A stretch of DNA of 64,000 bases, from the NCBI RefSeq assembly GCF_001875665.1, contig NZ_MLAL01000011.1:19375-83374 (forward strand), given 5' to 3'. Below the pieces are notes generated by a model, which was not told where the DNA came from, made no database searches, and was given only the letters and a program-made list of their open reading frames with translations. The stretch's first letter is position 1; each line of letters opens with the position of its first letter. Of the stretch, positions 6,657 to 54,082 are shown in pieces. A program made the position numbers and the translations under genes. The stretch comes from Corynebacterium sp. NML130628 (GTDB lineage Bacteria; Actinomycetota; Actinomycetes; Mycobacteriales; Mycobacteriaceae).

Positions 6657-7582
6657 AAACCAGGACCAGCTATAGCGTGCCGCCCGCGGGCCCGGCGTGG
6701 GGCGGCAGCCTCATGGGGACCTCGCTGGTAGCAACGCTGCTGGTCATCAGCGGGTTCGACCCCCTGGCGTGGGTCGTGGCCTGCATCGGGGTCGCCATCC
6801 TGGTGATGCTCGTCGTCGGGTTCATCATCTACCGCACGCCACGCTTCCGGCAGGACACGATGGCGCCGTGGGCCATGACCTTCATCGGGATCATGTCACT
6901 CGGCACCGCCTGGACCAACCTCACCGACAACCTGACATACATCCTGGTCGGCTTCTGGATCGGGGCGCCCGCCTGCCTCGCCGTGTACGCGAACCAGCTC
7001 CGCGGCTTCCAAGGACCACCGAACTTCGCGTGGGGGCTCGCCCTTGTCGGCCCCATCATGGCATCCAACACAGCCGCCACCACCCACGTCAAAGGCGGCG
7101 GCGACATCTACTGGATACTCGGCGTGTGCTGCATGGTGGCGTCGATAGGCGCGGCGTACCCGCTGTTTGCCAGGGTGTATGTGGCGGCGTGGCGTCGAAA
7201 AGTAGATCTGAGTGGGCCGAACGCCGCGACGGCCTGGATCCCCCTCGGCGTCGTCGGGCAAACCGTCTCCGCCGTCGACCTTCTCTTCGGCAAGGACGCC
7301 GAACTTATCGTCGGCACCGTCCTGCTCATCGCCGCAATCCCCATGATCGCGTTTGCCATGTGGCACTTCTACCCCGCCGTCGCGCGCTGGGCCCGCTACT
7401 CCCCTTCCTGGTGGGCATCCACCTTCCCCACCGGCACCATCAGCGTCGGCAGCCACCACCTCGCCGAAGTCTGGAACCTCGAATGGCTCACCATCATCGC
7501 CACCGCGCTGCCCGCCCTCCTCGTCCTCCACTGGCTCCTCTGCGTCACCCGATGCACATTCTGGGTAGTTTACGAGCGCTAA
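6653..7582 (+). CDS. TDT-family transporter (TehA/SLAC1-like), copy 2
   Basis: A 309-aa membrane protein of the same family as the gene before it: GPAWGGSLMGTSL near the N-terminus, TAWIPLGVVGQT in the second half, and SPSWWASTFPTGTI before the last helices. The start is a GTG overlapping the upstream stop codon. The C-terminal arrangement with WHFYPAV and the HWLLCV helix matches copy 1. A tandem duplication followed by divergence explains the pair. It is likely co-expressed with the gene at 5769 and possibly with that at 7601. Confidence 0.85.
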   Translation: MKTRTSYSVPPAGPAWGGSLMGTSLVATLLVISGFDPLAWVVACIGVAILVMLVVGFIIYRTPRFRQDTMAPWAMTFIGIMSLGTAWTNLTDNLTYILVGFWIGAPACLAVYANQLRGFQGPPNFAWGLALVGPIMASNTAATTHVKGGGDIYWILGVCCMVASIGAAYPLFARVYVAAWRRKVDLSGPNAATAWIPLGVVGQTVSAVDLLFGKDAELIVGTVLLIAAIPMIAFAMWHFYPAVARWARYSPSWWASTFPTGTISVGSHHLAEVWNLEWLTIIATALPALLVLHWLLCVTRCTFWVVYER

Positions 7583-18100: not shown

Positions 18101-18132
18101 TTGACAAATGATGAGGGGGGGGGGGCTTAAAT
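18101..18132 (+). promoter_or_regulatory. Promoter with an 11-G tract between -35 and -10
   Basis: TTGACA (18101-18106) and TTAAAT (18127-18132) are 20 bases apart, with G11 at 18115-18125 inside the spacer. Loss of three G residues would restore the ideal 17-base spacing, so slippage could switch or tune expression of the exported-protein gene at 18178. The -35 match is perfect; the -10 match is moderate. Confidence 0.5.
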
Positions 18133-18177: not shown

Positions 18178-18698
18178 GTGAAGAAGTTCGCAACCGCAGC
18201 CGTAGCTGCAACCATGGCACTCGGCCTGGCAGTCCCGTCGGCTGGTGCCGCGGAAGGCAAGAGCAGCGATGGTGCTTTTGGATCACTACTGTCGTAACTG
18301 GCAACACGTGCAAAATCACAAATTCTCGCGAGACCATCGAAAATGTATCACGAGACAAAGCAAAGCAGGAGCTAATCGCATTCGACGAGAGGAAGGTTAA
18401 CGATAATCATGCCGCATTCCTCCGTGGGACTGCCGATTCAACGTTGAACGACTTCTACTGGGGCGAGGCCTACAACGCCTTCAAGGCCTGCGCGGACGGC
18501 CAGAACTACTCCACCAACGCCATCAACTCTCTGTCCTCCGTGGTCGAACCGCACGAGGGTCGCGCGGCAGCGTACTGGCTGTCGGTCATTGTGCCTGCAC
18601 TCCTTGGCATCGCGGCGCTCGGTGCGGCGTTCTCGCCTGAGTTCCGCCACATGCTGCCAGCGCCAGTGCTGAACTTCCTGAACACGTACTTCAAGTAA
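18178..18698 (+). pseudogene. Exported protein gene with a one-base frameshift
   Basis: AAGGAGA precedes a GTG at 18178. The start encodes a signal peptide (VKKFATAAVAATMALGLAVP, then SAGAAEG), but that frame stops at 18294-18296. One extra T in the T4 run at 18276-18279 would join it to a frame that continues to 18698 (begins WITTVVTGNTCKITNS, contains YNAFKACADGQN, ends in a membrane segment WLSVIVPALLGIAALGAAF). The restored protein of about 173 residues would be an anchored exported protein like those at 360, 1378 and 62427. It may be a pseudogene, a sequencing error or a slippery site. Confidence 0.7.
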
Positions 18699-41894: not shown

Positions 41895-41981
41895 AGGGAT
41901 GCGTCGGCGAGGTCTGTTGGGGTAGGGATAGCCGCCACGAGCAGAGTCGGGAATTTGTGAACAGAATTGCAGATGGGAGTA
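41895..41981 (+). repeat. Family B repeat copy between GmrSD-like gene and SNF2 operon
   Basis: GCGTCGGCGAGGTCTGTTGG, then GCAGAGTCGGGAA, core TTTGTGAACAGAATTGC (41954-41970), AGATGGGAGTAA. It matches the unit at 38010-38095 along its length and differs at scattered bases. Confidence 0.85.
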
Positions 41982-42086
41982 ATAGGAGTAGGGAGGTTGG
42001 GATCTCCGCATTCCCCAATCACGCCCCGCCCGCTACAGTACAATGACGCAGATACATTCAAGCGGTTTTACTACATCAGGAAATTT

Positions 42087-45032
42087 ATGATTCAGAGCCC
42101 TGACCAGTCTGTACCGGAGAGCCCACGCCAGGAGAACCCCGGAATCTCCTTCGGGATGCACCTTTCCAGACATCAAGCGAAGTATTTCGCGCATGAGCTT
42201 GAGCGAAGTTATGCCAATGACCATGTCGGCAAGCTTGCAGGACTGCTTTTCGACGCCCAGGTGGAACCCAAGCCTCACCAGATTGAGGCAGCACTATTCG
42301 CGCTGAAGGGCAACGCGACAAGGGGCGTCGTGTTGGCCGATGAGGTCGGCCTCGGTAAGACGATCGAGGCGGGCATTGTTATTACGCAGTATTGGGCGGA
42401 GCGTAAACGTCGTATCCTGATCGTTGCTCCTGCCAGCCTCCGGCAGCAGTGGAAGCAGGAGCTGTACGAAAAGTTCTTGATCCCGTCCGAACTACTCGAC
42501 TCCAAGTCCAAGGCAACACTCCTGTCCAACAAGGCCGGCGGTCAGGTATTGATTGCTTCCTACGAGTTTGTCCAGCAGAACAAGGCGGATCTGATGCGTC
42601 CGTGGGACTTAGTCGTTGCCGACGAGGCTCACCGACTGCGCAACTTTTACAAGGGCAAGAAGCACGCCAAAGTGGCGCATTCGGTCGGTGAGGTTTTTGA
42701 TGGCGCGAGCAAGGTAGTGCTGCTCACGGCTACTCCACTGCAGAATCGTCTTGAAGAGATCTACGGGCTTGTCTCTATTTTTGACCCGGAGTACTTCCGG
42801 TCGATCGATGTTTTCCGCGAACGCTATGTAAAAACGGGGAGCGCCGAATTCAGCCCAGATGACTTGGCGGAGCGCGTCGGTCAGTTGACAAAGCGCACCC
42901 TGCGTCGAGATGCGGAGAAGTACATCCGATTCACCAAGCGAGACCCATTGACGGTGAAGTTCCAGCCTTCGCAGGCGGAGCTGGATCTTTATGACCTGGT
43001 GAATGCCTACCTCCAGCGTGACACCTTGTATGCGTTCAATGACTCGCAGCGAGCGCTTTCTTCGCAGGTGATGCGCAAGCGGCTGGGTTCCTCGACGTAT
43101 GCCGTGGGAATTACGCTTCGTAGAACAGCGAATCGCCTGGCCGAGGAACTAGCCGCAGGCCAGCCACACGACGATCGTATGCCACTGTTCGATTTTGATA
43201 GCGACATGCTTGATGAAGAGCAGGCAGCATATGAGGCGGTTGGGGAGCTCGTGGAGAAGCACGAGGACTGGTCGGACCCGAAAGTCCGCAAGAAAGTGCA
43301 GAGCGAGATTGATGAGCTCAGAGAGTACGCAACGCTCGCGGAATCGATTCACCAGAATCAGAAGTCGCTGAAATTGGGGGAGGCCATTGAGCGTGGCTTC
43401 GCGCGGCTGCGTGAGGTCGGTGCCCCTGAGAAGGCCATCATCTTCACCGAGTACAGCGACACCCAGAACTTCATCGCGGAAACGCTGCGGCAAGCAGGAT
43501 ACGGGGAAGGGCTGGTACTGTTCAACGGCCAAAACGATTCGCCTGAGGCGACTGCGATTTATCAAGAGTGGCTCACAAAGAATGATGGTAGCGACGTCAT
43601 TACCGGCAACCCGGCGGCGGATCGTCGAAAAGCTCTTGTTGATTACTTCCGTGACTCCGGCTCGATCATGATCGCGACCGAAGCGGCATCCGAAGGCATC
43701 AACCTGCAGTTTTGCTCAATGCTGATCAACTACGACCTGCCGTGGAACCCACAGCGGGTGGAACAGCGTATCGGCCGCATTCACCGCTATGGCCAGAAGC
43801 ACGACGTTGTCATCGTCAATTTCTTCAATGAGGGCAACGCGGCTGAGGCGCGCATCTTGGAGCTGCTCGAGAACAAATTCCACCTCTTCGATAGCGTCTT
43901 TGGCGCCAGTGACGAGGTGCTGGGTCGCATTGAGAGTGGCTTCGATTTCGCCCAGGAGATTGCGAAGATCTACGACAGCTACCGCACTGCTGACGAGATC
44001 AATCAGGCGTTCCAAGAGCTTGAGAAGAAGTACGCCGCCACTGTAAGCAAGGACATGGCTGAGGCGAAGGCGAAGGTCTTCGACAACCTTGATCCGTCAG
44101 TGCGTGATCGCTTGAAGTCCTACGACGAACAGTTTGGTGAGGTACTGAACAAGTTCGAGCGGCTGCTCCTCCTCCTGACCATTCACGGTTTACAAGGCAA
44201 GGCCACGTTTGAAGGCGACGGACGCAACTTCGTCCTGAACACACCACCGGCTGCCGGTATTGCGGCTGGCCGCTACCACTTCAAGTCCTCGCCAAGCGGC
44301 AATTCCAAGCAGTACCGCTATCACAGTGATCTTGCGAAGTACGTCATCGATGGCGCCCTGGAAGCGGACACGCCGTGCCAGACGCTCGTGTTCGACATCA
44401 GTCAGTCGGACCGCGTCAGCTCCCGCATGAAGGAACTGGCCGGACAGTCTGGATCCCTGGTTGTTCGGGGTTTGACATTCAGGATGAAGGCCAACGACAG
44501 CGATATTTCCGAGAGCTACTTACTCGCTGCAGGCATCACCGATTCAGGCGAAGTACTGAACCAAGAAGATGCAGCAGAGATGATGGATCTGCGCGTTGTC
44601 GACACGTTGGATATAGCTGGGCCGCTCAACGCGGACCTTTTTGCGGCAGCGATCGAACAGCAGCGGGATTCTCTGGAGAAGGAAGTCCAGCACCGCAACT
44701 CGAGCTACTACAACCAGCAAGAAGAACTGCTTGAAAGTCAGATCCTTGACCGCGACACGGAGCGCAGGAAATCTGTCCGCGAGCTTGAGAAGAAGAGAAA
44801 AGACCTGCGCAGGAAAGCTACTCAAGCCGACGATCCGATGGAGCAGCTGAGGTTCAAGAAGAAGGCTCGAAATCTTGACGACGAGATCGATTCGATCGAG
44901 GACAAATATCGAAAAGAGAAGCGAAACCTGCGCGACAATGTCGACGAGTTGCTTATTCTGATTAGACAGTCGCTTCAAGGCAAGAGGTTTGAGAAAGAGC
45001 TGTTCACTATCCGGTGGCAGATCAAGGCGTAA
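42087..45032 (+). CDS. SNF2-family helicase/ATPase (RapA-like)
   Basis: A 981-aa superfamily 2 ATPase. Motif I ADEVGLGKTIEAGI (residues about 84-97), Ia VAPASLRQQWKQEL, II VVADEAHRLRNF (DEAH), III LLTATPLQN; the C-terminal helicase half has IFTEYSDTQNF, ATEAASEGINLQF and VEQRIGRIHRYGQ (motif VI). A long charged coiled coil fills residues about 855-975. The ATG at 42087 has AGGA upstream. It begins a three-gene unit with mod and res (22 and 9 bp gaps); SNF2 motors of this form accompany DISARM and other restriction-like systems. A role in moving on DNA for this system is inferred. Confidence 0.88.
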   Translation: MIQSPDQSVPESPRQENPGISFGMHLSRHQAKYFAHELERSYANDHVGKLAGLLFDAQVEPKPHQIEAALFALKGNATRGVVLADEVGLGKTIEAGIVITQYWAERKRRILIVAPASLRQQWKQELYEKFLIPSELLDSKSKATLLSNKAGGQVLIASYEFVQQNKADLMRPWDLVVADEAHRLRNFYKGKKHAKVAHSVGEVFDGASKVVLLTATPLQNRLEEIYGLVSIFDPEYFRSIDVFRERYVKTGSAEFSPDDLAERVGQLTKRTLRRDAEKYIRFTKRDPLTVKFQPSQAELDLYDLVNAYLQRDTLYAFNDSQRALSSQVMRKRLGSSTYAVGITLRRTANRLAEELAAGQPHDDRMPLFDFDSDMLDEEQAAYEAVGELVEKHEDWSDPKVRKKVQSEIDELREYATLAESIHQNQKSLKLGEAIERGFARLREVGAPEKAIIFTEYSDTQNFIAETLRQAGYGEGLVLFNGQNDSPEATAIYQEWLTKNDGSDVITGNPAADRRKALVDYFRDSGSIMIATEAASEGINLQFCSMLINYDLPWNPQRVEQRIGRIHRYGQKHDVVIVNFFNEGNAAEARILELLENKFHLFDSVFGASDEVLGRIESGFDFAQEIAKIYDSYRTADEINQAFQELEKKYAATVSKDMAEAKAKVFDNLDPSVRDRLKSYDEQFGEVLNKFERLLLLLTIHGLQGKATFEGDGRNFVLNTPPAAGIAAGRYHFKSSPSGNSKQYRYHSDLAKYVIDGALEADTPCQTLVFDISQSDRVSSRMKELAGQSGSLVVRGLTFRMKANDSDISESYLLAAGITDSGEVLNQEDAAEMMDLRVVDTLDIAGPLNADLFAAAIEQQRDSLEKEVQHRNSSYYNQQEELLESQILDRDTERRKSVRELEKKRKDLRRKATQADDPMEQLRFKKKARNLDDEIDSIEDKYRKEKRNLRDNVDELLILIRQSLQGKRFEKELFTIRWQIKA

Positions 45033-45054: not shown

Positions 45055-47025
45055 ATGATGAGCGAAGAGCGAGACATGATCAACGAAGTTCCTGGCAGCA
45101 GCCCTAATTTCCGTACCGAGTTAGCCGAGCAGCTCGCCGAGTTGGTGCCGGAAGCGGTTGCCGACGGCAAAATTGACGTCGAAAAACTCAAAGAATTACT
45201 AGGGGGGGGGGACGTAGCAGACACCAGCGAACGCTTCGGCCTGTTCTGGCCAGGTAAGAAACGCGCGATGCGCGCAGCGCAGACCCCGACGACTGCGACG
45301 CTTCGCCCGGATAAGGAAAACTCCAAAGACTGGGACACCACAAAGAACGTCTTTATCGAGGGCGACAACCTCGAAGTGCTGAAGATCCTGCAGAAGCACT
45401 ACCACGGCAAGATCAAGATGATTTACATCGATCCGCCGTACAACACCGGCAAAGACTTCGTGTACCCCGACAACTACAAAGAGGGCCTACAGACCTACCT
45501 CGAATGGTCTAAGCAGGTCAACGAAGACGGCAAGAAGCTGTCGACTAACGCTGATGCTGACGGGCGCTATCATTCGAATTGGCTGAATATGCTATACCCG
45601 CGACTGAAACTCGCTAGAAATCTTCTCGCTGAAGATGGTGTCGTTTTTATTTCAATCGATGATAACGAACTGAATACTTTAGTTTCAATCGGCCGTGAAA
45701 TTTTTGGAGAACAGAACTACGTTGGCACCCTTTCTTGGTCAAAGAAGCGTAAAGGCAGCTTTCTATCAAAGAAGATCGTGTCAATGCACGAGTATGTCGT
45801 GTGCTTTTCGCGCCGACCTGACGTCCAGCTAGTAGGTGGAAAGGCCGATGCCAAGGAATCACAACCATTGGTTAAACGGACAAATACCGTCTCGAAACTT
45901 ACTTTTCCCGCTAGTGTTGTCCGGACCAAACTTCCAGATGGTCTGCTTGGACCTGGCATTTACGGCGAGGGCAGCAGTGCTGTGGAGCTACTAGGAGAAG
46001 TTGCAATCAAGAACGGGGTCATGATCAATGAGTTCAGCCTCCAAGGACCGTTTGTTTGGTCTCAAGAAACGCTAAATGCCCAAATTCGACAAGGTGCGCG
46101 AATCATAATTAACACCGAAAAATTGCAACCCCGAGCTTTTAAAGCAGAGTCGGACGATAACCTGAAAGGGCTTTCGTCAATAATAAACGGACTCGAGCTT
46201 GGCGCTACCAATGAAGACGCTTATGAGTACTCCAAATCTCTATTTGCAGTAGAAAAAGTCCTTGATTATCCCAAACCCGTGAATCTACTCATCCATCTAA
46301 TCCGTGCTGCAACTTTTAAAGATAAAGATGCGATCATCATGGACTTTTTCGCGGGATCAGGTACAACTGCTGATGCTTTAATGCGACTCAACGCGATAGA
46401 TGGAGGAAACCGCAAATTTATCTTGGTGCAGCTGCCGGAACCCACGCCAGAAAAATCTGAAGCAAGTAGATCAGGTTTCAAAACGATTCCAGAGATCTCA
46501 CGTCAGCGTTTGGTACTAGCTAGCGAGCAGATTGAAAATGAGCTTGGCGAGCAAATAGCCAAGCGCGACGAACCGCTAGACACTGGTCTCCGCTCATACA
46601 AGCTCGCAGACACCAACTTCACCAAGTGGCGCAGCGACTCTGACACCGACGCGACTGCGCTCGAACAACACCTGCTGGATCTCCGTGAAAGCGCCGACGA
46701 CAACGCCACCCCTGATGATCTACTCACCGAGATTCTGATTAAGCAGGGTCACTCGTTAGTCGAGCAGATTCTTGACCGCGATATCGACGGTCTACCGTAT
46801 AAAGCGGTGGTCCGAGTCGATGATGAAGACGGCGAAGAAGACACGCTAGTGCTCGCGTACCTCGACGAACACACCAAGCCAACCTTGGTGCAGCTTCGCG
46901 CAGCTCTGGAGGTCAAGCCTGCTCAGTTCATCATGCTCGAGGATGCGTTCCAAGGCGACGACCCGCTGAAAACCAACCTGGCGCAAATCTGCAAGACCAA
47001 CGGTATCGAGCTCTGGACGGCGTAA
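45055..47025 (+). CDS. mod: Type III DNA methyltransferase Mod, G10 tract near codon 50
   Basis: A 656-aa adenine N6-methyltransferase of beta order: motif IV DPPYNTGKDFVY (residues about 125-136) comes before motif I, DFFAGSGTTADALMRL (about 430-445). The region between is the target-recognition part. Mod alone methylates one strand of the site and guides Res for cleavage. A G10 run encodes GlyGlyGly and the first base of Asp at about residue 50; G9 would give TAG two codons later and G11 a TAA after about 16 codons, so expression is probably switched by slippage. DNA from about 45590 to 46520 looks AT-richer than both ends, suggesting exchange of specificity regions. Confidence 0.9.
   Translation: MMSEERDMINEVPGSSPNFRTELAEQLAELVPEAVADGKIDVEKLKELLGGGDVADTSERFGLFWPGKKRAMRAAQTPTTATLRPDKENSKDWDTTKNVFIEGDNLEVLKILQKHYHGKIKMIYIDPPYNTGKDFVYPDNYKEGLQTYLEWSKQVNEDGKKLSTNADADGRYHSNWLNMLYPRLKLARNLLAEDGVVFISIDDNELNTLVSIGREIFGEQNYVGTLSWSKKRKGSFLSKKIVSMHEYVVCFSRRPDVQLVGGKADAKESQPLVKRTNTVSKLTFPASVVRTKLPDGLLGPGIYGEGSSAVELLGEVAIKNGVMINEFSLQGPFVWSQETLNAQIRQGARIIINTEKLQPRAFKAESDDNLKGLSSIINGLELGATNEDAYEYSKSLFAVEKVLDYPKPVNLLIHLIRAATFKDKDAIIMDFFAGSGTTADALMRLNAIDGGNRKFILVQLPEPTPEKSEASRSGFKTIPEISRQRLVLASEQIENELGEQIAKRDEPLDTGLRSYKLADTNFTKWRSDSDTDATALEQHLLDLRESADDNATPDDLLTEILIKQGHSLVEQILDRDIDGLPYKAVVRVDDEDGEEDTLVLAYLDEHTKPTLVQLRAALEVKPAQFIMLEDAFQGDDPLKTNLAQICKTNGIELWTA
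45202..45211 (+). repeat. G10 homopolymer inside mod
   Basis: Ten consecutive G residues lie in the N-terminal coding region. The present length keeps the frame open. Loss or gain of one base leads to early termination (TAG directly, or TAA about 16 codons later). Confidence 0.9.
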
Positions 47026-47034
47026 AGGATCAAC

Positions 47035-49968
47035 ATGAAATTCAAGTTTGATGCCAAGCAGGAGTACCAGGTTCAAGCGATTGATTCGGTTACTGAGCTG
47101 TTCGAAGGCCAGCCGAACGACGCCGGAGACTTTCTCACAACGTTCCACACCGAACGAGTTCTGCCAGAGACCAGCAACCAAGCGCTTGACATAGATCTCA
47201 GTGAAGAGGCTGGGGCCGTCGGCAACAATTTCTTGCTGGATGAAGCAACTGTGCTCGAGAACCTCAAGGTCGTGCAAAATGAGCACGGGCTTGAACCAAC
47301 AAAAGAGCTTATTGACGGCCTCCAGTTCGACATTGAGATGGAGACCGGCACCGGCAAAACCTATGTGTACCTCCGCACGATTTTTGAGCTGGCGGAGAAG
47401 TACAACTTCACCAAATTTGTCATTCTTGTGCCCAGCGTTGCGATCCGCGAAGGCGTGAAAACAAGCATCGAGCTGATGCACGATCACTTCCGTCAGCTGT
47501 ACCCTGCGTTGCCGTTTGACTACATGGTCTATAGCGGTAAAAACGCTGAGGAAGTGCAATCCTTTGCGACGTCGACAAGCATTCAGATCATGATCATGAC
47601 GATCGGCTCCGTGCGTGGCCGTGGAAACAACTTGATCATGAACCAAACCCGGGACAAGCTCAACGGGTTGCGCCCGATCGATTTCCTGCGCGCGACACGA
47701 CCGATTCTGATCATGGATGAGCCGCAGAACATGGAGTCTGAGCTGTCCAAGACGGCTCTGGCAGGCATGGACCCGGCGTTCGTCCTCCGCTACAGTGCGA
47801 CACACCGCGAAACGCGAAACCTTACTTACCGTTTGGACCCGGTAGACGCTCATGAGCTGGGCCTGGTCAAACAGATTGTTGTGGCGGAGGCGACGGAGCA
47901 TGGGGGTGACGCCAAGCCATACATCAAACTTCTTTCCGTCGACAGCAATCCGTGGCAGGCGAGTCTCGAGTTGGTGTGCCGTAAGAAGGACGGATCGTTA
48001 GCCCGCCAGGTGAAGAAGGTGAAGCAGAACCAGGACCTCGAGAAGATCACGGGTAATCCCGCATACAACAATAACTGGCGGATCAATGAAATCAACCTTG
48101 ACGGTCCAGGGTTTATCGAGCTGACCAACCACGGCATTCTCCAAGTCGGCGAAACGATCGGTGGCAACGACGAGACCGTGTACCGCGAAATGATCCGCGA
48201 AACCATCCGCGAGCACTTCCGCAAAGAATCGCTGATGCGACCGCTCGGCATCAAGGTACTGAGCCTCTTCTTCGTGGATAAAGTAGCCAGCTATCTGGGA
48301 GACGGCGCCGACAACACCACCGCCGACGGCAAGTTCGCCCAGTGGTTCGACGAGCTCTTCATTGAGGAACGAAACCGATTCCCACAGTACAAAGACCTAC
48401 TTCCACAAGATCCGATTGAGCTGCGGCGCGCGTACTTCTCGCAGATCAAAAAGGGTGTCTACGGAGACACGTCAGGTGTCACAGCCAAGGATGACGACTC
48501 CTACGACCTCATCATGAAAGACAAGGCCCGTCTGCTGAGCGAAGACGAACCGGTTCGGTTCATCTTCTCCCACTCTGCGCTGCGCGAAGGCTGGGACAAC
48601 CCGAACGTTTTCCAAATCTGTACTCTGCGCGAAATGGGTTCCGAGACCGAGCGCCGCCAAACCATCGGTCGCGGTCTGCGACTCCCTGTGAACCAGAACG
48701 GCGAGCGTGTAGCGGACCGCTCCGTTGCCCAACTCACCGTCGTCGCTAATGAGTCCTACCAAGAGTTCGCCACCAACCTCCAAAAGGAATACAAGAAGGC
48801 CGGTGTGGCGATTGGGTACATCCGCAAAGGCGACTTTGCCAAGCTGCCGAAACCCGACACGGAAGAGCAAGAAAACTTAGGGTTCGCCACATCCGCCGAG
48901 ATCTGGGATCACCTGAAACAACGAGGCTTCCTGAACAAAGACGGCTACGTCACCGCATCCTTCACCCCGGATGCCGATGGCTTCTCCCTAGGCCTGGCGG
49001 CAGAGTACAGCCCCGTGGAAGAGGCGGTCATCGAGGTACTGCGCCGTGCGAATATTGAGCATTACGTAAAGCCGAAGCGTGCTCGAACGACGCGCAAGCT
49101 GAACAAGCAGCTGTACTTCCGATCGCGCGAATTCGAAGATTTTTGGGAGAAGATTAGTCAACGCACGACCTACAGCGTCTCAGTTGATCGCGATGTACTG
49201 ATCAAGAACGCAGTGCAGAAGATCAAGAAGGCTGAAGAGATTGCGCCCCTTCGAATCGAAGTGAAGAAAGCCCGACTGACTGTCGCTCGCGGCGGCACCA
49301 AAGGCTCAGAAACAAGCAGCCGCACCGCCGAACTGCGCGGCGGGTACAAACTGCCGGATATCGTCTCTGAGCTCCAGGAAGCAACATCGCTCACGCGCAA
49401 AACGATCATCGACATCCTCATCCAGAGTGACCGCCTCGACGAGTTCATCGGCAACCCGAACGACTACATCAAGATGGTCAAAGGCATCATCGAAGCCGAA
49501 CTCGCAGCAATCGTCACCGAAGGCGTCCAATACGAAAAGATCGGCGGCAGCGTATACTCGCTCACCGAACTTCAGCAAGACGGCATCGAAGAAAAGCAAT
49601 ACTTCCTGGACAACCTGTACAAGGTCAAGAACCGCGAGAAAACCGACTACGACTTCGTCGTCTATGACTCGGAGGCCGAGCGTCGGTTCGCCGCACTCCT
49701 CGACGACCGCGAAGACATCAAACTGTTCCTGAAGCTACCGCCGAAGTTCAAGATCGATACCCCGGTGGGGCCATACAACCCCGACTGGGCAATCGTGAAA
49801 CAGGTAGACGGCGAAGACAAGTTGTACATGATCCGCGAAACAAAGAGCACGATGATCGAACATCTCCTGCGCACAACCGAGCAAGCTAAGATCGATGCCG
49901 CTCACGAACACTTCAAGACGATCGGGGTTGACTACGCGAAGGCGGCCCCGAGCAATTGGAATATCTAA
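47035..49968 (+). CDS. res: Type III restriction endonuclease Res subunit
   Basis: A 977-aa helicase-nuclease. Motif I METGTGKTYVYLRT (residues about 102-115), Ia ILVPSVAIREGVK, motif II as DEPQNME (the DEPQ form typical of Res), III YSATHRE, and motif VI QTIGRGLRLPVN. The C-terminal endonuclease site is YNPDWAIV followed by YMIRETKST, a PD-ExK arrangement. It forms the ATP-dependent cleavage complex with Mod and follows mod by 9 bases. The sequence looks intact. Confidence 0.92.
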   Translation: MKFKFDAKQEYQVQAIDSVTELFEGQPNDAGDFLTTFHTERVLPETSNQALDIDLSEEAGAVGNNFLLDEATVLENLKVVQNEHGLEPTKELIDGLQFDIEMETGTGKTYVYLRTIFELAEKYNFTKFVILVPSVAIREGVKTSIELMHDHFRQLYPALPFDYMVYSGKNAEEVQSFATSTSIQIMIMTIGSVRGRGNNLIMNQTRDKLNGLRPIDFLRATRPILIMDEPQNMESELSKTALAGMDPAFVLRYSATHRETRNLTYRLDPVDAHELGLVKQIVVAEATEHGGDAKPYIKLLSVDSNPWQASLELVCRKKDGSLARQVKKVKQNQDLEKITGNPAYNNNWRINEINLDGPGFIELTNHGILQVGETIGGNDETVYREMIRETIREHFRKESLMRPLGIKVLSLFFVDKVASYLGDGADNTTADGKFAQWFDELFIEERNRFPQYKDLLPQDPIELRRAYFSQIKKGVYGDTSGVTAKDDDSYDLIMKDKARLLSEDEPVRFIFSHSALREGWDNPNVFQICTLREMGSETERRQTIGRGLRLPVNQNGERVADRSVAQLTVVANESYQEFATNLQKEYKKAGVAIGYIRKGDFAKLPKPDTEEQENLGFATSAEIWDHLKQRGFLNKDGYVTASFTPDADGFSLGLAAEYSPVEEAVIEVLRRANIEHYVKPKRARTTRKLNKQLYFRSREFEDFWEKISQRTTYSVSVDRDVLIKNAVQKIKKAEEIAPLRIEVKKARLTVARGGTKGSETSSRTAELRGGYKLPDIVSELQEATSLTRKTIIDILIQSDRLDEFIGNPNDYIKMVKGIIEAELAAIVTEGVQYEKIGGSVYSLTELQQDGIEEKQYFLDNLYKVKNREKTDYDFVVYDSEAERRFAALLDDREDIKLFLKLPPKFKIDTPVGPYNPDWAIVKQVDGEDKLYMIRETKSTMIEHLLRTTEQAKIDAAHEHFKTIGVDYAKAAPSNWNI

Positions 49969-50461: not shown

Positions 50462-53400
50462 GTGTATGAAAACCGTATAGCCCGCAAACAGGACTTAGCC
50501 GAGCTTCTCAATGCTGTACCCACGACTGATACCGTGGTTGACCAGCTGCGGAGCGCTTCAAATGTTCTTGCCCGTGCCATCAGTGACCTCAGGGAGCCGT
50601 ACCTCACCCGAGTCGAGGAGCCACAGTTTATTGTGGCCGATCTGTATATCGGCACGCGCGGGTTTGAAGTTCTCGACCAGCTTTTCAAACATTTGCTCGA
50701 AGCGACGGAAGGATCGGAAGAACAGGCCAAAGGGCTCATCGATAGGCACTCGATGGTGGTGCTTACTGCGCTGGTCCACCACGCGTTGATAAGCGGTGAT
50801 GCATCATTCTGGGACAGCTTCCTGCACAAATTTCATTTGGGCGAAGATCACTGGCTTCCTCAGCTGACGCGTGATCGGTTACATTCCTGGCTCACAAGGG
50901 CACGGCTTGATCCCTTTGATGACGTTTCTTTTCGGGGACGTGATTACGTCGCAAAGATTTATTTGCATGCTGGGATCTCAGCGAAGGATGCGCAGACCGT
51001 CGTTGAGCTGATTCAAAAGCTCCATCGCGATGGGATGAGGTTCGGGGATGCCCACCAATTTGCGCAGTATGTGCACGGCGAAGCAGTCCGGCGCGACCTC
51101 CCGTTCACACTCCAGAACCTGCTGAAATACAGTGGCGAACGCGCCACGAACATTCTTGAGCGCTTCTACGAACTCGCAGAGTTCTCGCGTTCAACCCCTG
51201 CTTGGGAAGACGCGTTCGAGCCTGGCTATACCGCTTCTCTCCCTGAACCTGCGTTCACCACGGTTGTGGATCTGCTCGCCGGCCGCGAGCTGGTAACTCA
51301 AGAGGAGCCGATTGCTGCGAGGGCCGCTAAGCAGAGTGCCGCCCCAACGATTCACGTTGATCTGGAAAACGGGGTGATTGAGTTCGTTATCCCCGCTGTT
51401 CCGGCAATGGAAGATGTCGACGCCCATGAAATCAAGCACGCTTTCCTCTTTGATTCCCGACGCATCGAAATCTCCCAACCGCGCGACTACACCACGCTCG
51501 GGTTCCAGGAAGTCCGCGTCCCAATCAGCGAACAAACTCGGAACATTTATGACATCCGTGGTGGCAGCATCAAGAAGATCGCTCAGGTGTTGGATCCCGA
51601 ACGGCCATTTCTGTTTCTCCGTCAAAGCGGGCAGTTGCGGAGAAATCAGAAAGAGTTGACCGGTTCTTCCGCGTATGTCCTCACGCCTGGCAGCGCGAAG
51701 CTTTCGAGCAACCACCCGGAAATCTCTTCTATACCTGTTGATGGCTGGCACGGGTGGCGCATCCGCCATCTTCGTCTGCGAAATGAACCTCTCAATATCC
51801 TTATCGGCTCGAAGCAACACACCATCCCGGTGAATCGCATTCGGACCCCGCAAACAGACTTCGCAGCCGTTGCACTCGAGCATGTTGTTGGGCTGAATCA
51901 CCACCCAGTGCTGCACACCATCCCGTCAATTACCCTGCCCGACGACGGCGCAACCTGGACAATCAAATGTACCCACCGCGTCAATGGCACCCCTAGCTCT
52001 GAAGACTACGAAGTCTACGAGTACGAAGTAGAGGAGTACGGCACACCGATCCCGCTACTCGACGCCTGTGACGACCCTTGGGTCGGCGTATTCGACTACA
52101 GCGTTTTCCGGAACGGGAGTCTGAACGAGACCTACTCCATCAATATCGCCGAGGGGCTGAAAGCCTCCCTCACGTACCAATCCGCAGAGGCTCTGCCATA
52201 CCGGATCCTCATACCCAAACCCGGGAAGAACTTTTCTTCAGGTGGCACGCTCAGCCCAGCGTTTGTAACGTTTGACGACGCAACCCACTCTGGCCTCCGA
52301 CTTCCTTCAGCCAACAAGTGCACAGCACACAACGGCGTACCAAAGACGTTCCGAATCTCGAACGCAGCAGCCTCAGACACGTACTTCCTTGACGTTCAAG
52401 TCAACGCTCCGGCCATGGCATTCCGTATCCCCACGGTCGACAGGGCAAATGTATGGCGCTCCGAGCCGCTCACGTTCAACATCGACGACTTGGAGACCAC
52501 CGGATTATTCGAGCTCCGCTTCCCGGAACCGGCCTTTGAAGTCAGCGCGCACATTATTGAAATGAAGGTAGGCACGCATCGCGTTCTCCGTAGCATCAAC
52601 CTAAACTCCAGCTATAAGAAACACCGCTGGCAGACAAGCGTGACCAGCCTTACCGCCGGTTTGGAGAGTGGCCGGACCTACGTACTCGCAGTGAGCTGGT
52701 ACAAGGAGACCGAATACGATGCATACGTTCGCCAGTACCCGAATCGCCGCGGCAAATTCCGGCCCGAGGAAGTGCAACGAACAAATATCTTCGCCCCCAT
52801 CGCACGGCTGTCACGCGCAAAACTGCTCAGAAAAGTCAGAGTAGACGGTACCGAAGCAGTACTGACAGCGGGGCGGACAGCTGAACGCGGAATCGACCTC
52901 CGCGCCTGGCTCCTGTTCGAGCCCGAAGCCCCCGCGCAAGAGCTCAAGGTGCGGGGAAACACGGCTGAGCTACCGGAAACGCTGCTTGAGAAAGGCCCTA
53001 TTATCTTCGACGCGAAAGAAAAGGCTTTCCTGTCTACATGGGCAACCCCGTTCCCATCGCGGCAGGCGTTCGTTGTGGATGACGGGACTGTGAACAGCTT
53101 TGTTGGCCCCCACAGCGCAGACATCTGGCTCTACCAGCCAGTGCCCAAAAACACCCTGCTACCGGGTGAACTTAAGAAAGTGTGGGAAACACGGAGGAAA
53201 TTCCACCACGTCATCAGCGCAAAAACTGAGTCGATGATGGACTTCAATGAGGCCACACAGCTCCACCTGCGCCACGACCCACGCGCCTCGCTGGAGGTGC
53301 TCGACGCAACATCGCTGACACAGAATGAACAGGTTGCAATGCTGCTCGCCACCAGGCTGGTATATGACAGCTTCGCCTCACCAGAAACCAGCGGTCCATT

Positions 53401-54082
53401 CCACCCGGCTCCTTGGATTGCGGTGCTCCAGGAAATGAACGACCTATGCACCCTCCATGGGCGCACCGCCACCCCAGACACGCTTCAAGAAATACAAGCA
53501 TCCCAGACTTTCTTGAAGAACACCGGCAAAGTGGCCTTCGACCTGCTCTATCGGCAAGGAAACCCATCCCAGATCTTCCAAGCCACCAATCGGGAACTGC
53601 AGCAACTCCCAATCATTCCTGGTGAGCGGCTGGCACGCCTCGATGAGCTGCTCAACGTCGTTGCGCTCGACCACGCGGTGCTGGACATTGCTGCGCGCAT
53701 GATTGCTCATGCCGAACTCATCCGTGCACATGCACCACTAGACAGAATCTCGGACATTGCCACGCTCTTCAAGGAACTCCAGGGGGTGGAATACCTCATC
53801 GGTAATAAAGCCAGCCCTGATCTCTACCCCGCAATCACCACCCTGAACACGAACGGTTCACAAAGCAACGACTTGTGGTCAAAAGTCCCCTATGTGTCTT
53901 TAGTGTCCATGTTGCTGCTCCGCATGACCGCGCACGAACTGATCAAACCTATCCCATTCCTCACTGAACACCTCGACACCCTTGCCGAGCTAGCGCTCCA
54001 CGCACCAAAACTCTTCATCTTCGATCTCGTCTACGCTGAGGCCGTAACGCTCTCCCTCACCAATAAGGACCTATCACTATGA
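50462..54082 (+). CDS. Large unknown protein paired with the DUF1998 helicase
   Basis: A 1206-aa soluble protein. Residues 1-270 are helical (LYIGTRGFEVLDQLFKHLLE, RDYVAKIYLHAGISAKDAQT); from about 300 to 860 it is beta-rich, as in repeated immunoglobulin-like sandwiches (DYTTLGFQEVRVPISEQTR, YEVYEYEVEEYGTPIPLLD); the last 250 residues are helical again. No catalytic motif is recognised. The stop overlaps the helicase start by 4 bases (ATGA), so they form one operon. Large partners of DUF1998 helicases occur in Druantia III (DruH) and DISARM (DrmB); similarity to either is by position and size only. Confidence 0.75.
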   Translation: MYENRIARKQDLAELLNAVPTTDTVVDQLRSASNVLARAISDLREPYLTRVEEPQFIVADLYIGTRGFEVLDQLFKHLLEATEGSEEQAKGLIDRHSMVVLTALVHHALISGDASFWDSFLHKFHLGEDHWLPQLTRDRLHSWLTRARLDPFDDVSFRGRDYVAKIYLHAGISAKDAQTVVELIQKLHRDGMRFGDAHQFAQYVHGEAVRRDLPFTLQNLLKYSGERATNILERFYELAEFSRSTPAWEDAFEPGYTASLPEPAFTTVVDLLAGRELVTQEEPIAARAAKQSAAPTIHVDLENGVIEFVIPAVPAMEDVDAHEIKHAFLFDSRRIEISQPRDYTTLGFQEVRVPISEQTRNIYDIRGGSIKKIAQVLDPERPFLFLRQSGQLRRNQKELTGSSAYVLTPGSAKLSSNHPEISSIPVDGWHGWRIRHLRLRNEPLNILIGSKQHTIPVNRIRTPQTDFAAVALEHVVGLNHHPVLHTIPSITLPDDGATWTIKCTHRVNGTPSSEDYEVYEYEVEEYGTPIPLLDACDDPWVGVFDYSVFRNGSLNETYSINIAEGLKASLTYQSAEALPYRILIPKPGKNFSSGGTLSPAFVTFDDATHSGLRLPSANKCTAHNGVPKTFRISNAAASDTYFLDVQVNAPAMAFRIPTVDRANVWRSEPLTFNIDDLETTGLFELRFPEPAFEVSAHIIEMKVGTHRVLRSINLNSSYKKHRWQTSVTSLTAGLESGRTYVLAVSWYKETEYDAYVRQYPNRRGKFRPEEVQRTNIFAPIARLSRAKLLRKVRVDGTEAVLTAGRTAERGIDLRAWLLFEPEAPAQELKVRGNTAELPETLLEKGPIIFDAKEKAFLSTWATPFPSRQAFVVDDGTVNSFVGPHSADIWLYQPVPKNTLLPGELKKVWETRRKFHHVISAKTESMMDFNEATQLHLRHDPRASLEVLDATSLTQNEQVAMLLATRLVYDSFASPETSGPFHPAPWIAVLQEMNDLCTLHGRTATPDTLQEIQASQTFLKNTGKVAFDLLYRQGNPSQIFQATNRELQQLPIIPGERLARLDELLNVVALDHAVLDIAARMIAHAELIRAHAPLDRISDIATLFKELQGVEYLIGNKASPDLYPAITTLNTNGSQSNDLWSKVPYVSLVSMLLLRMTAHELIKPIPFLTEHLDTLAELALHAPKLFIFDLVYAEAVTLSLTNKDLSL

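Follow-up and report, generated by a model that had tools for sequence, protein, structure and literature searches.

The window analysed here is a single stretch of 64,000 nt from Corynebacterium sp. NML130628, and the features discussed are collected in Table 1, together with tracts located elsewhere in the genome. Genes for a SNF2-family helicase, for Mod and for Res follow one another in that order, and res is intact. Mod has an N6_N4_Mtase domain in Pfam, with the motifs DPPY at residue 126 and FFAGSGTT at residue 431. The first-pass annotation of the region had described mod as a type III methyltransferase gene, and this is borne out by the PADLOC assignments of mod and then res, and by the solved relatives of the protein, which include 6k0w_B (E 1.3e-59) and the Mod subunit of EcoP15I (4zcf_A, E 4.3e-58). 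A methylase domain with DPPY and FxGxG motifs, an adjoining res gene and homology to solved Mod proteins are thus all found, as in a type III Mod subunit. An AlphaFold model of Mod had a mean pLDDT of 52 and was left unused.

The central part of Mod (about residues 255–390) is variable between conserved flanks, as would be expected with swapped target recognition regions. The mod gene of Corynebacterium macginleyi shifts frame within this variable middle (near positions 6756–7022 of locus L030), and its locus has no G or C run of at least 8. In 16 related loci, some of which end at contig ends, res is present in 14 and the helicase in 12 (one only partial and one non-adjacent), so that helicase, mod and res look like a conserved set. 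The helicase was also considered as a member of the DISARM system and rejected; it is DrmD-like, scoring 593.5 bits against an NCBIfam equivalog cut-off of 950 bits. The surroundings (39477–62097 of the window) have the look of a defence island, with a GmrSD-like gene, the helicase–mod–res genes, a gene of 1206 codons, a DEAD helicase with an MrfA Zn-binding (MZB) domain, an Abi_2 gene and an ISL3 transposase. The 1206-codon ORF (50462–54082) adjoins the MZB helicase gene and had no match in Pfam, PADLOC or NCBIfam at E 0.001.

Table 1. Positions of the genes, tracts and signals described in the text. Coordinates refer to the window unless a contig or locus is named.
Feature	Coordinates	Strand	Remarks
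G11 tract, second long tract of the window	18115..18125	+	20-base spacer between TTGACA (18101) and TTAAAT (18127); hexamers read by eye
SNF2-family helicase gene	41967..45032	+	SNF2-rel_dom; 22 bases before mod
mod, type III DNA methyltransferase subunit	45055..47025	+	656 aa; PF01555 E 1.5e-29; PADLOC MTase_III 562 bits
G10 homopolymer, proposed slippage switch	45202..45211	+	codons 50–53 of mod
TAG	45215..45217	+	first stop after the tract in one shifted frame
TAA	45255..45257	+	first stop after the tract in the other shifted frame; 13 bases before the in-frame ATG
In-frame ATG, codon 72	45268..45270	+	possible reinitiation start past the tract; both catalytic motifs kept
res, type III restriction subunit	47035..49968	+	977 aa; PADLOC REase_III 925 bits; Pfam ResIII and RE_endonuc domains
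G10 tract in type I hsdM	contig C13:41473–41482 (locus L042)		about codons 403–406; frame open
C9 tract in type ISP R-M gene	contig C28, locus L108:3802–3810		frame shifted at the tract

The ten G residues that had been reported near codon 50 of mod begin at that codon, and at this length the frame is open from end to end. The repeat is such that a change of one unit shifts the reading frame, as in a contingency locus. In the alignment with 6k0w the tract falls ahead of the conserved methylase core, a placement made from sequence only. With nine G residues the TAG is reached two codons on, just as the first-pass annotation had it; the TAA expected with eleven is also there, at a distance of about 15 codons instead of the 16 or so that had been given. 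The closed state of mod may be leaky, because the ATG at codon 72, lying 13 bases past one of the shifted-frame stops, could permit reinitiation of a protein that retains DPPY and FFAGSGTT.

The tract is absent from the relatives at hand. Of 45 related loci fetched, 38 could be read at the tract site; they amount to 35 different sequences, as the two collections have some genomes in common. G or C runs of at least 7 are absent from the site in all 38, and the maximum is a G6 a few bases downstream, in locus L056. The site sequences of G079, G105 and G138 equal those of L021, L022 and L023, contigs bearing the name Corynebacterium, in keeping with the genus. Close relatives have LLEGD at the site where the present protein reads LLGGGD, an increase of one codon. 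A DNA search of 242 genomes of the genus with the first 300 bases of mod revealed no second copy of the tract. At 86% identity, G079 and G218 come closest and are without the tract; in 14 other loci read at the site it is again missing, with a longest run of 6. Searching plasmids with mod gave no match, and an exact 18-base search of viral contigs gave a single match (L076) that is unrelated to mod. On these comparisons the mod tract is lineage-specific.

Public protein collections contain variants around the tract. Among the best 120 of 5874 Mod proteins, P0002 has the same LLGGGD while P0003 has LLGGD, and removal of one tract glycine from P0002 gives P0003 exactly. P0003 is found in 16 contigs, under the NCBI name Corynebacterium diphtheriae. 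Two further proteins, P0005 (18 members) and P0006, start at a methionine matching codon 72, the first past the tract, and are identical to P0002 at 573 and 575 of 582 residues, respectively. These start sites could reflect shifted mod frames in the strains concerned. The suggestion is not firm, since P0094, another allele with 59% identity over 89% of the query, starts at the same methionine, and gene calling alone can give such starts. Differences in the length of the mod tract are seen at the level of protein variants only (the pairs P0002/P0003 and P0005/P0006), and a different length was found in no DNA from a second strain.

Within the window there are two runs of G or C of at least 7, namely the G10 of mod and the G11 listed in Table 1. 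These give seven overlapping G8 matches, a count that was reached in 4 of 100 shuffles, so that the number of runs is weak evidence by itself and the case is not based upon it. Across the genome, runs of exactly 7, 8, 9, 10 and 11 number 5, 3, 1, 5 and 1. Markov extrapolation from the window predicts 133–259 runs of at least 7, compared with the 15 seen, and 1.4–4.2 runs of at least 10, compared with 6. Runs of 7–9 are scarcer than expected, and those of 10–11 form a modest hump. Three of the seven genomic tracts of at least 9 lie in R-M methyltransferase genes, one each in the type III mod, a type I hsdM and the gene of a type ISP enzyme. The binomial probability of this, calculated post hoc on the assumption that genes of this kind occupy 12 kb, is about 5e-6. 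The remaining four tracts were read as intergenic, and three of these are upstream of a secreted or surface-type frame.

The hsdM gene encodes N6_Mtase and HsdM_N domains, with Methylase_S and HSDR_N frames adjoining. Here too the tract adds one codon, the local peptide being KGGGID where close relatives have KGxID. No run of 6 or more occurs at the site in 25 readable relatives (29 were fetched, of which 3 were unmatched and 1 was partial), and GGG is found in none of the 26 proteins having the search motif among the first 29 listed. The hsdM tract is present in one genome only, and no length variation was seen. In another genome (G162, C1:742626–747049, L122) the match to hsdM falls into two segments separated by about 2.8 kb, which gives the gene an interrupted look.

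The type ISP gene encodes Mrr_cat_2, ResIII and ISP_coupler domains, with Type_ISP_C in a second frame. Twenty ISP loci were fetched, five of which have the tract, and these five exhibit four different lengths in the DNA: C9 in the present genome, C10 in G022 and G060, C11 in G025 and C14 in G050. The stop-to-stop frame that includes the tract is long in G022 and G060 (1667 and 1650 codons) and short in the present genome, G050 and G025 (1066, 1067 and 1057 codons). The G060 match has one TGA inside, and in G025 the C11 is followed by a string of N and by the tract once more, an assembly gap that leaves the length of this tract unsure. Upstream of the tract, the present copy and that of G022 are identical at 594 of 606 bases. 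Beyond the tract, all three closed copies, those with the short frame, have an open frame of 495 codons or more that extends as far as the fetched sequence does and includes the NPPY motif. A similar picture emerges from the proteins. Among the best 120 of 7991 ISP proteins, the tract motif with 5 or more residues after it is present in 14, a count that excludes P0265, a partial entry that stops at the tract. Eight of the 14 read on and six end early, five in one shifted frame and one in the other, and both PPP and PPPP variants occur. At the level of sequence comparison, the strongest proof of switching lies in this second R-M gene of the genome. The original proposal that mod is phase-variable thus gains indirect support, from length variation visible in the DNA of a different R-M gene of this genome, while mod itself contributes protein variants only.

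Length variation is also seen upstream of surface proteins. A frame of 534 codons with a pilin domain and an LPSTG anchor is preceded by a tract (contig C4:71886; L038, L188–L191) that is 10, 10, 10 and 12 bases long in four genomes and separates the two hexamers of a promoter-like pair, TGGACA-18-TAGATT. Ahead of a frame with a Rib domain, of which 957 codons were fetched before the stretch cuts it off, another tract (contig C15:28765; L043, L176–L178) has lengths of 10, 8 and 12 in three genomes, the run in the third (G222) being at the collinear position and outside the aligned part. The G11 tract of the window lies upstream of an ORF at 18178 encoding a secreted-like peptide of 39 aa. A promoter scan with a spacer range of 16–18 found no site at this tract, whose spacer is 20 bases, and across the four intergenic tracts it found a site at one. 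A G8 run (contig C8:65417, L040) also occurs early in a frame of 1051 codons that has a Cna_B domain and an anchor-like LARTG tail.

The genome encodes NucS, and a profile search for MutS_V found no match in it; the same search, run as a control, was positive in 11 of 14 genomes. In the portion of the published work drawn upon here, the NucS of Mycobacterium smegmatis is described as leaving indels of 1–2 bases unrepaired (PMC11551767), so that such tracts may be especially mutable in a genome without MutS. In another actinomycete, Cutibacterium acnes, the parts of the study consulted report 54 tracts of variable length, 96% of them G or C, whose variation follows clades, and one restriction system that has been inactivated five times independently (PMC4746626). 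The clade-wise variation suggests that change in that species is slow.

On these observations together, the mod tract is probably a contingency switch, of a type already known. In type III enzymes Res cannot act without Mod. Slipped-strand copying would frequently alter the length of the mod tract itself and so shift the frame of mod, and a closed frame would lose Mod. Res would then be idle, so that methylation and phage restriction would toggle together and the cell would not cut its own DNA. The same logic would apply to the type I hsdM gene and to the single-chain type ISP enzyme. Two of the R-M tracts are within mod and hsdM, and the third precedes the NPPY motif of the ISP enzyme. All three lie in parts predicted to be needed for both methylation and cutting, so that switching off should be safe for the cell. 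We consider it probable that G10 in an intact mod gene allows the Mod and Mod–Res enzyme to be turned off and on in this way, and that the genome varies its defence repertoire tract by tract. A wider proposal can be made, for which the case seems to us evenly balanced. The type III, type I and type ISP systems would each be switched by their own G or C tract and would form, together with the tract-spaced promoters of a pilin and of further surface proteins, a slippage phasome where NucS replaces MutS. Up to eight states of defence and methylation could then coexist in one population, and whole defence systems would blink off without self-damage.

The alternative that survives best is an expansion that is neutral or decaying: poly-G would grow because indels are not repaired, and mod would be heading towards slow, clade-wise inactivation rather than reversible switching. 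G10 runs are certainly widespread in the genus, being present in 155 of 201 Corynebacterium genomes, so that a G10 tract as such is unremarkable. Such an origin would also agree with the clade-wise variation and repeated loss of a restriction system described in the consulted parts of the C. acnes study (PMC4746626), and with the frameshift in C. macginleyi mod that occurred in a locus free of long runs. We nevertheless think it unlikely. The expansions in mod and hsdM have both kept the frame, with one codon more than in close relatives. The ISP tract is kept in five genomes in open and closed frames, and the closed copies remain open, with NPPY, beyond the tract. The tracts ahead of the pilin-domain and Rib-domain proteins likewise persist, in four and three genomes, with changing length. 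In a sample of 29 G10 loci from the genus, 7 have no ORF of at least 100 codons over the tract. A few genomes (such as G130 and G120) have very many G10 matches, which may be assembly effects.

Slippage of RNA polymerase or of the ribosome on the G tract would allow a single DNA sequence to yield Mod both in full length and truncated, and the tract would then set dosage instead of a heritable state. The consulted part of a study on Bifidobacterium does speak of polymerase-mediated slippage, in a case where a long G tract precedes pilus genes (PMC12104195). We judge this reading quite improbable, given that the ISP tract and the two surface-protein tracts differ in length in the DNA, something that slippage on RNA does not need. 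Least credible of all is an assembly or sequencing error in the homopolymer, for although this is a draft assembly of 45 contigs and G025 has an assembly gap at such a tract, the 656-aa frame is open at G10 and the same LLGGGD recurs in another public cluster, P0002.

Were switching of mod by slippage to be correct, tract-switched control of R-M systems would extend to Corynebacterium, a genus with many species of skin and mucosa, and a type ISP enzyme would join the systems under tract control. The link between missing indel repair and the switching of defence would become testable, and differences between strains in transformability and phage sensitivity could in part be explained. In practical terms, a Mod that is shortened or an ISP enzyme that is truncated may be given out as the true protein by gene callers. 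Among the matches listed in a search of the open-licence literature by title and start of abstract, no report of a phasevarion or phase-variable R-M system in Corynebacterium was found; a 2018 survey of repeats in type III mod genes was outside the scope of that search.

The closest known systems are the phase-variable type III mod genes, ModA of Haemophilus and Neisseria, ModH of Helicobacter, ModM and ModS, in which the length of a simple repeat within the gene sets the frame of mod, as proposed here. ModH is poly-G based. The present example differs from these in its occurrence in Corynebacterium, with NucS, no MutS match, an intact res and a SNF2 helicase gene before mod. Such repeats are given for 17.4% of the mod genes of REBASE, and for 10% of type I systems, in the consulted part of a survey (PMC7394358). 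Phase-variable type I systems, for example hsdM of nontypeable Haemophilus and hsdS of NgoAV, resemble the present hsdM in that a type I methylation gene contains a repeat, although here the G10 lies at about codons 403–406 and in one genome only. Type ISP enzymes, the class for which LlaGI and LlaBIII are named, share with the gene described here the nuclease, helicase, coupler, methylase and specificity domains, which are in a single chain in the full-length relatives. The type ISP genes HP0667–0669 of Helicobacter pylori are frameshifted like the copies here. In strain 26695, however, the frameshifts are stated, in the part of the source consulted, not to arise from sequence repeats (PMC3936762), whereas here a C tract of 9–14 lies ahead of the NPPY motif. 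The C. acnes tracts are similar in belonging to an actinomycete and in being mostly variable runs of G or C; no claim of a phasevarion is made in the consulted parts of that paper, and the variation that it describes is slow and clade-wise (PMC4746626), in contrast to the reversible switching that we propose as the probable role of the mod tract.
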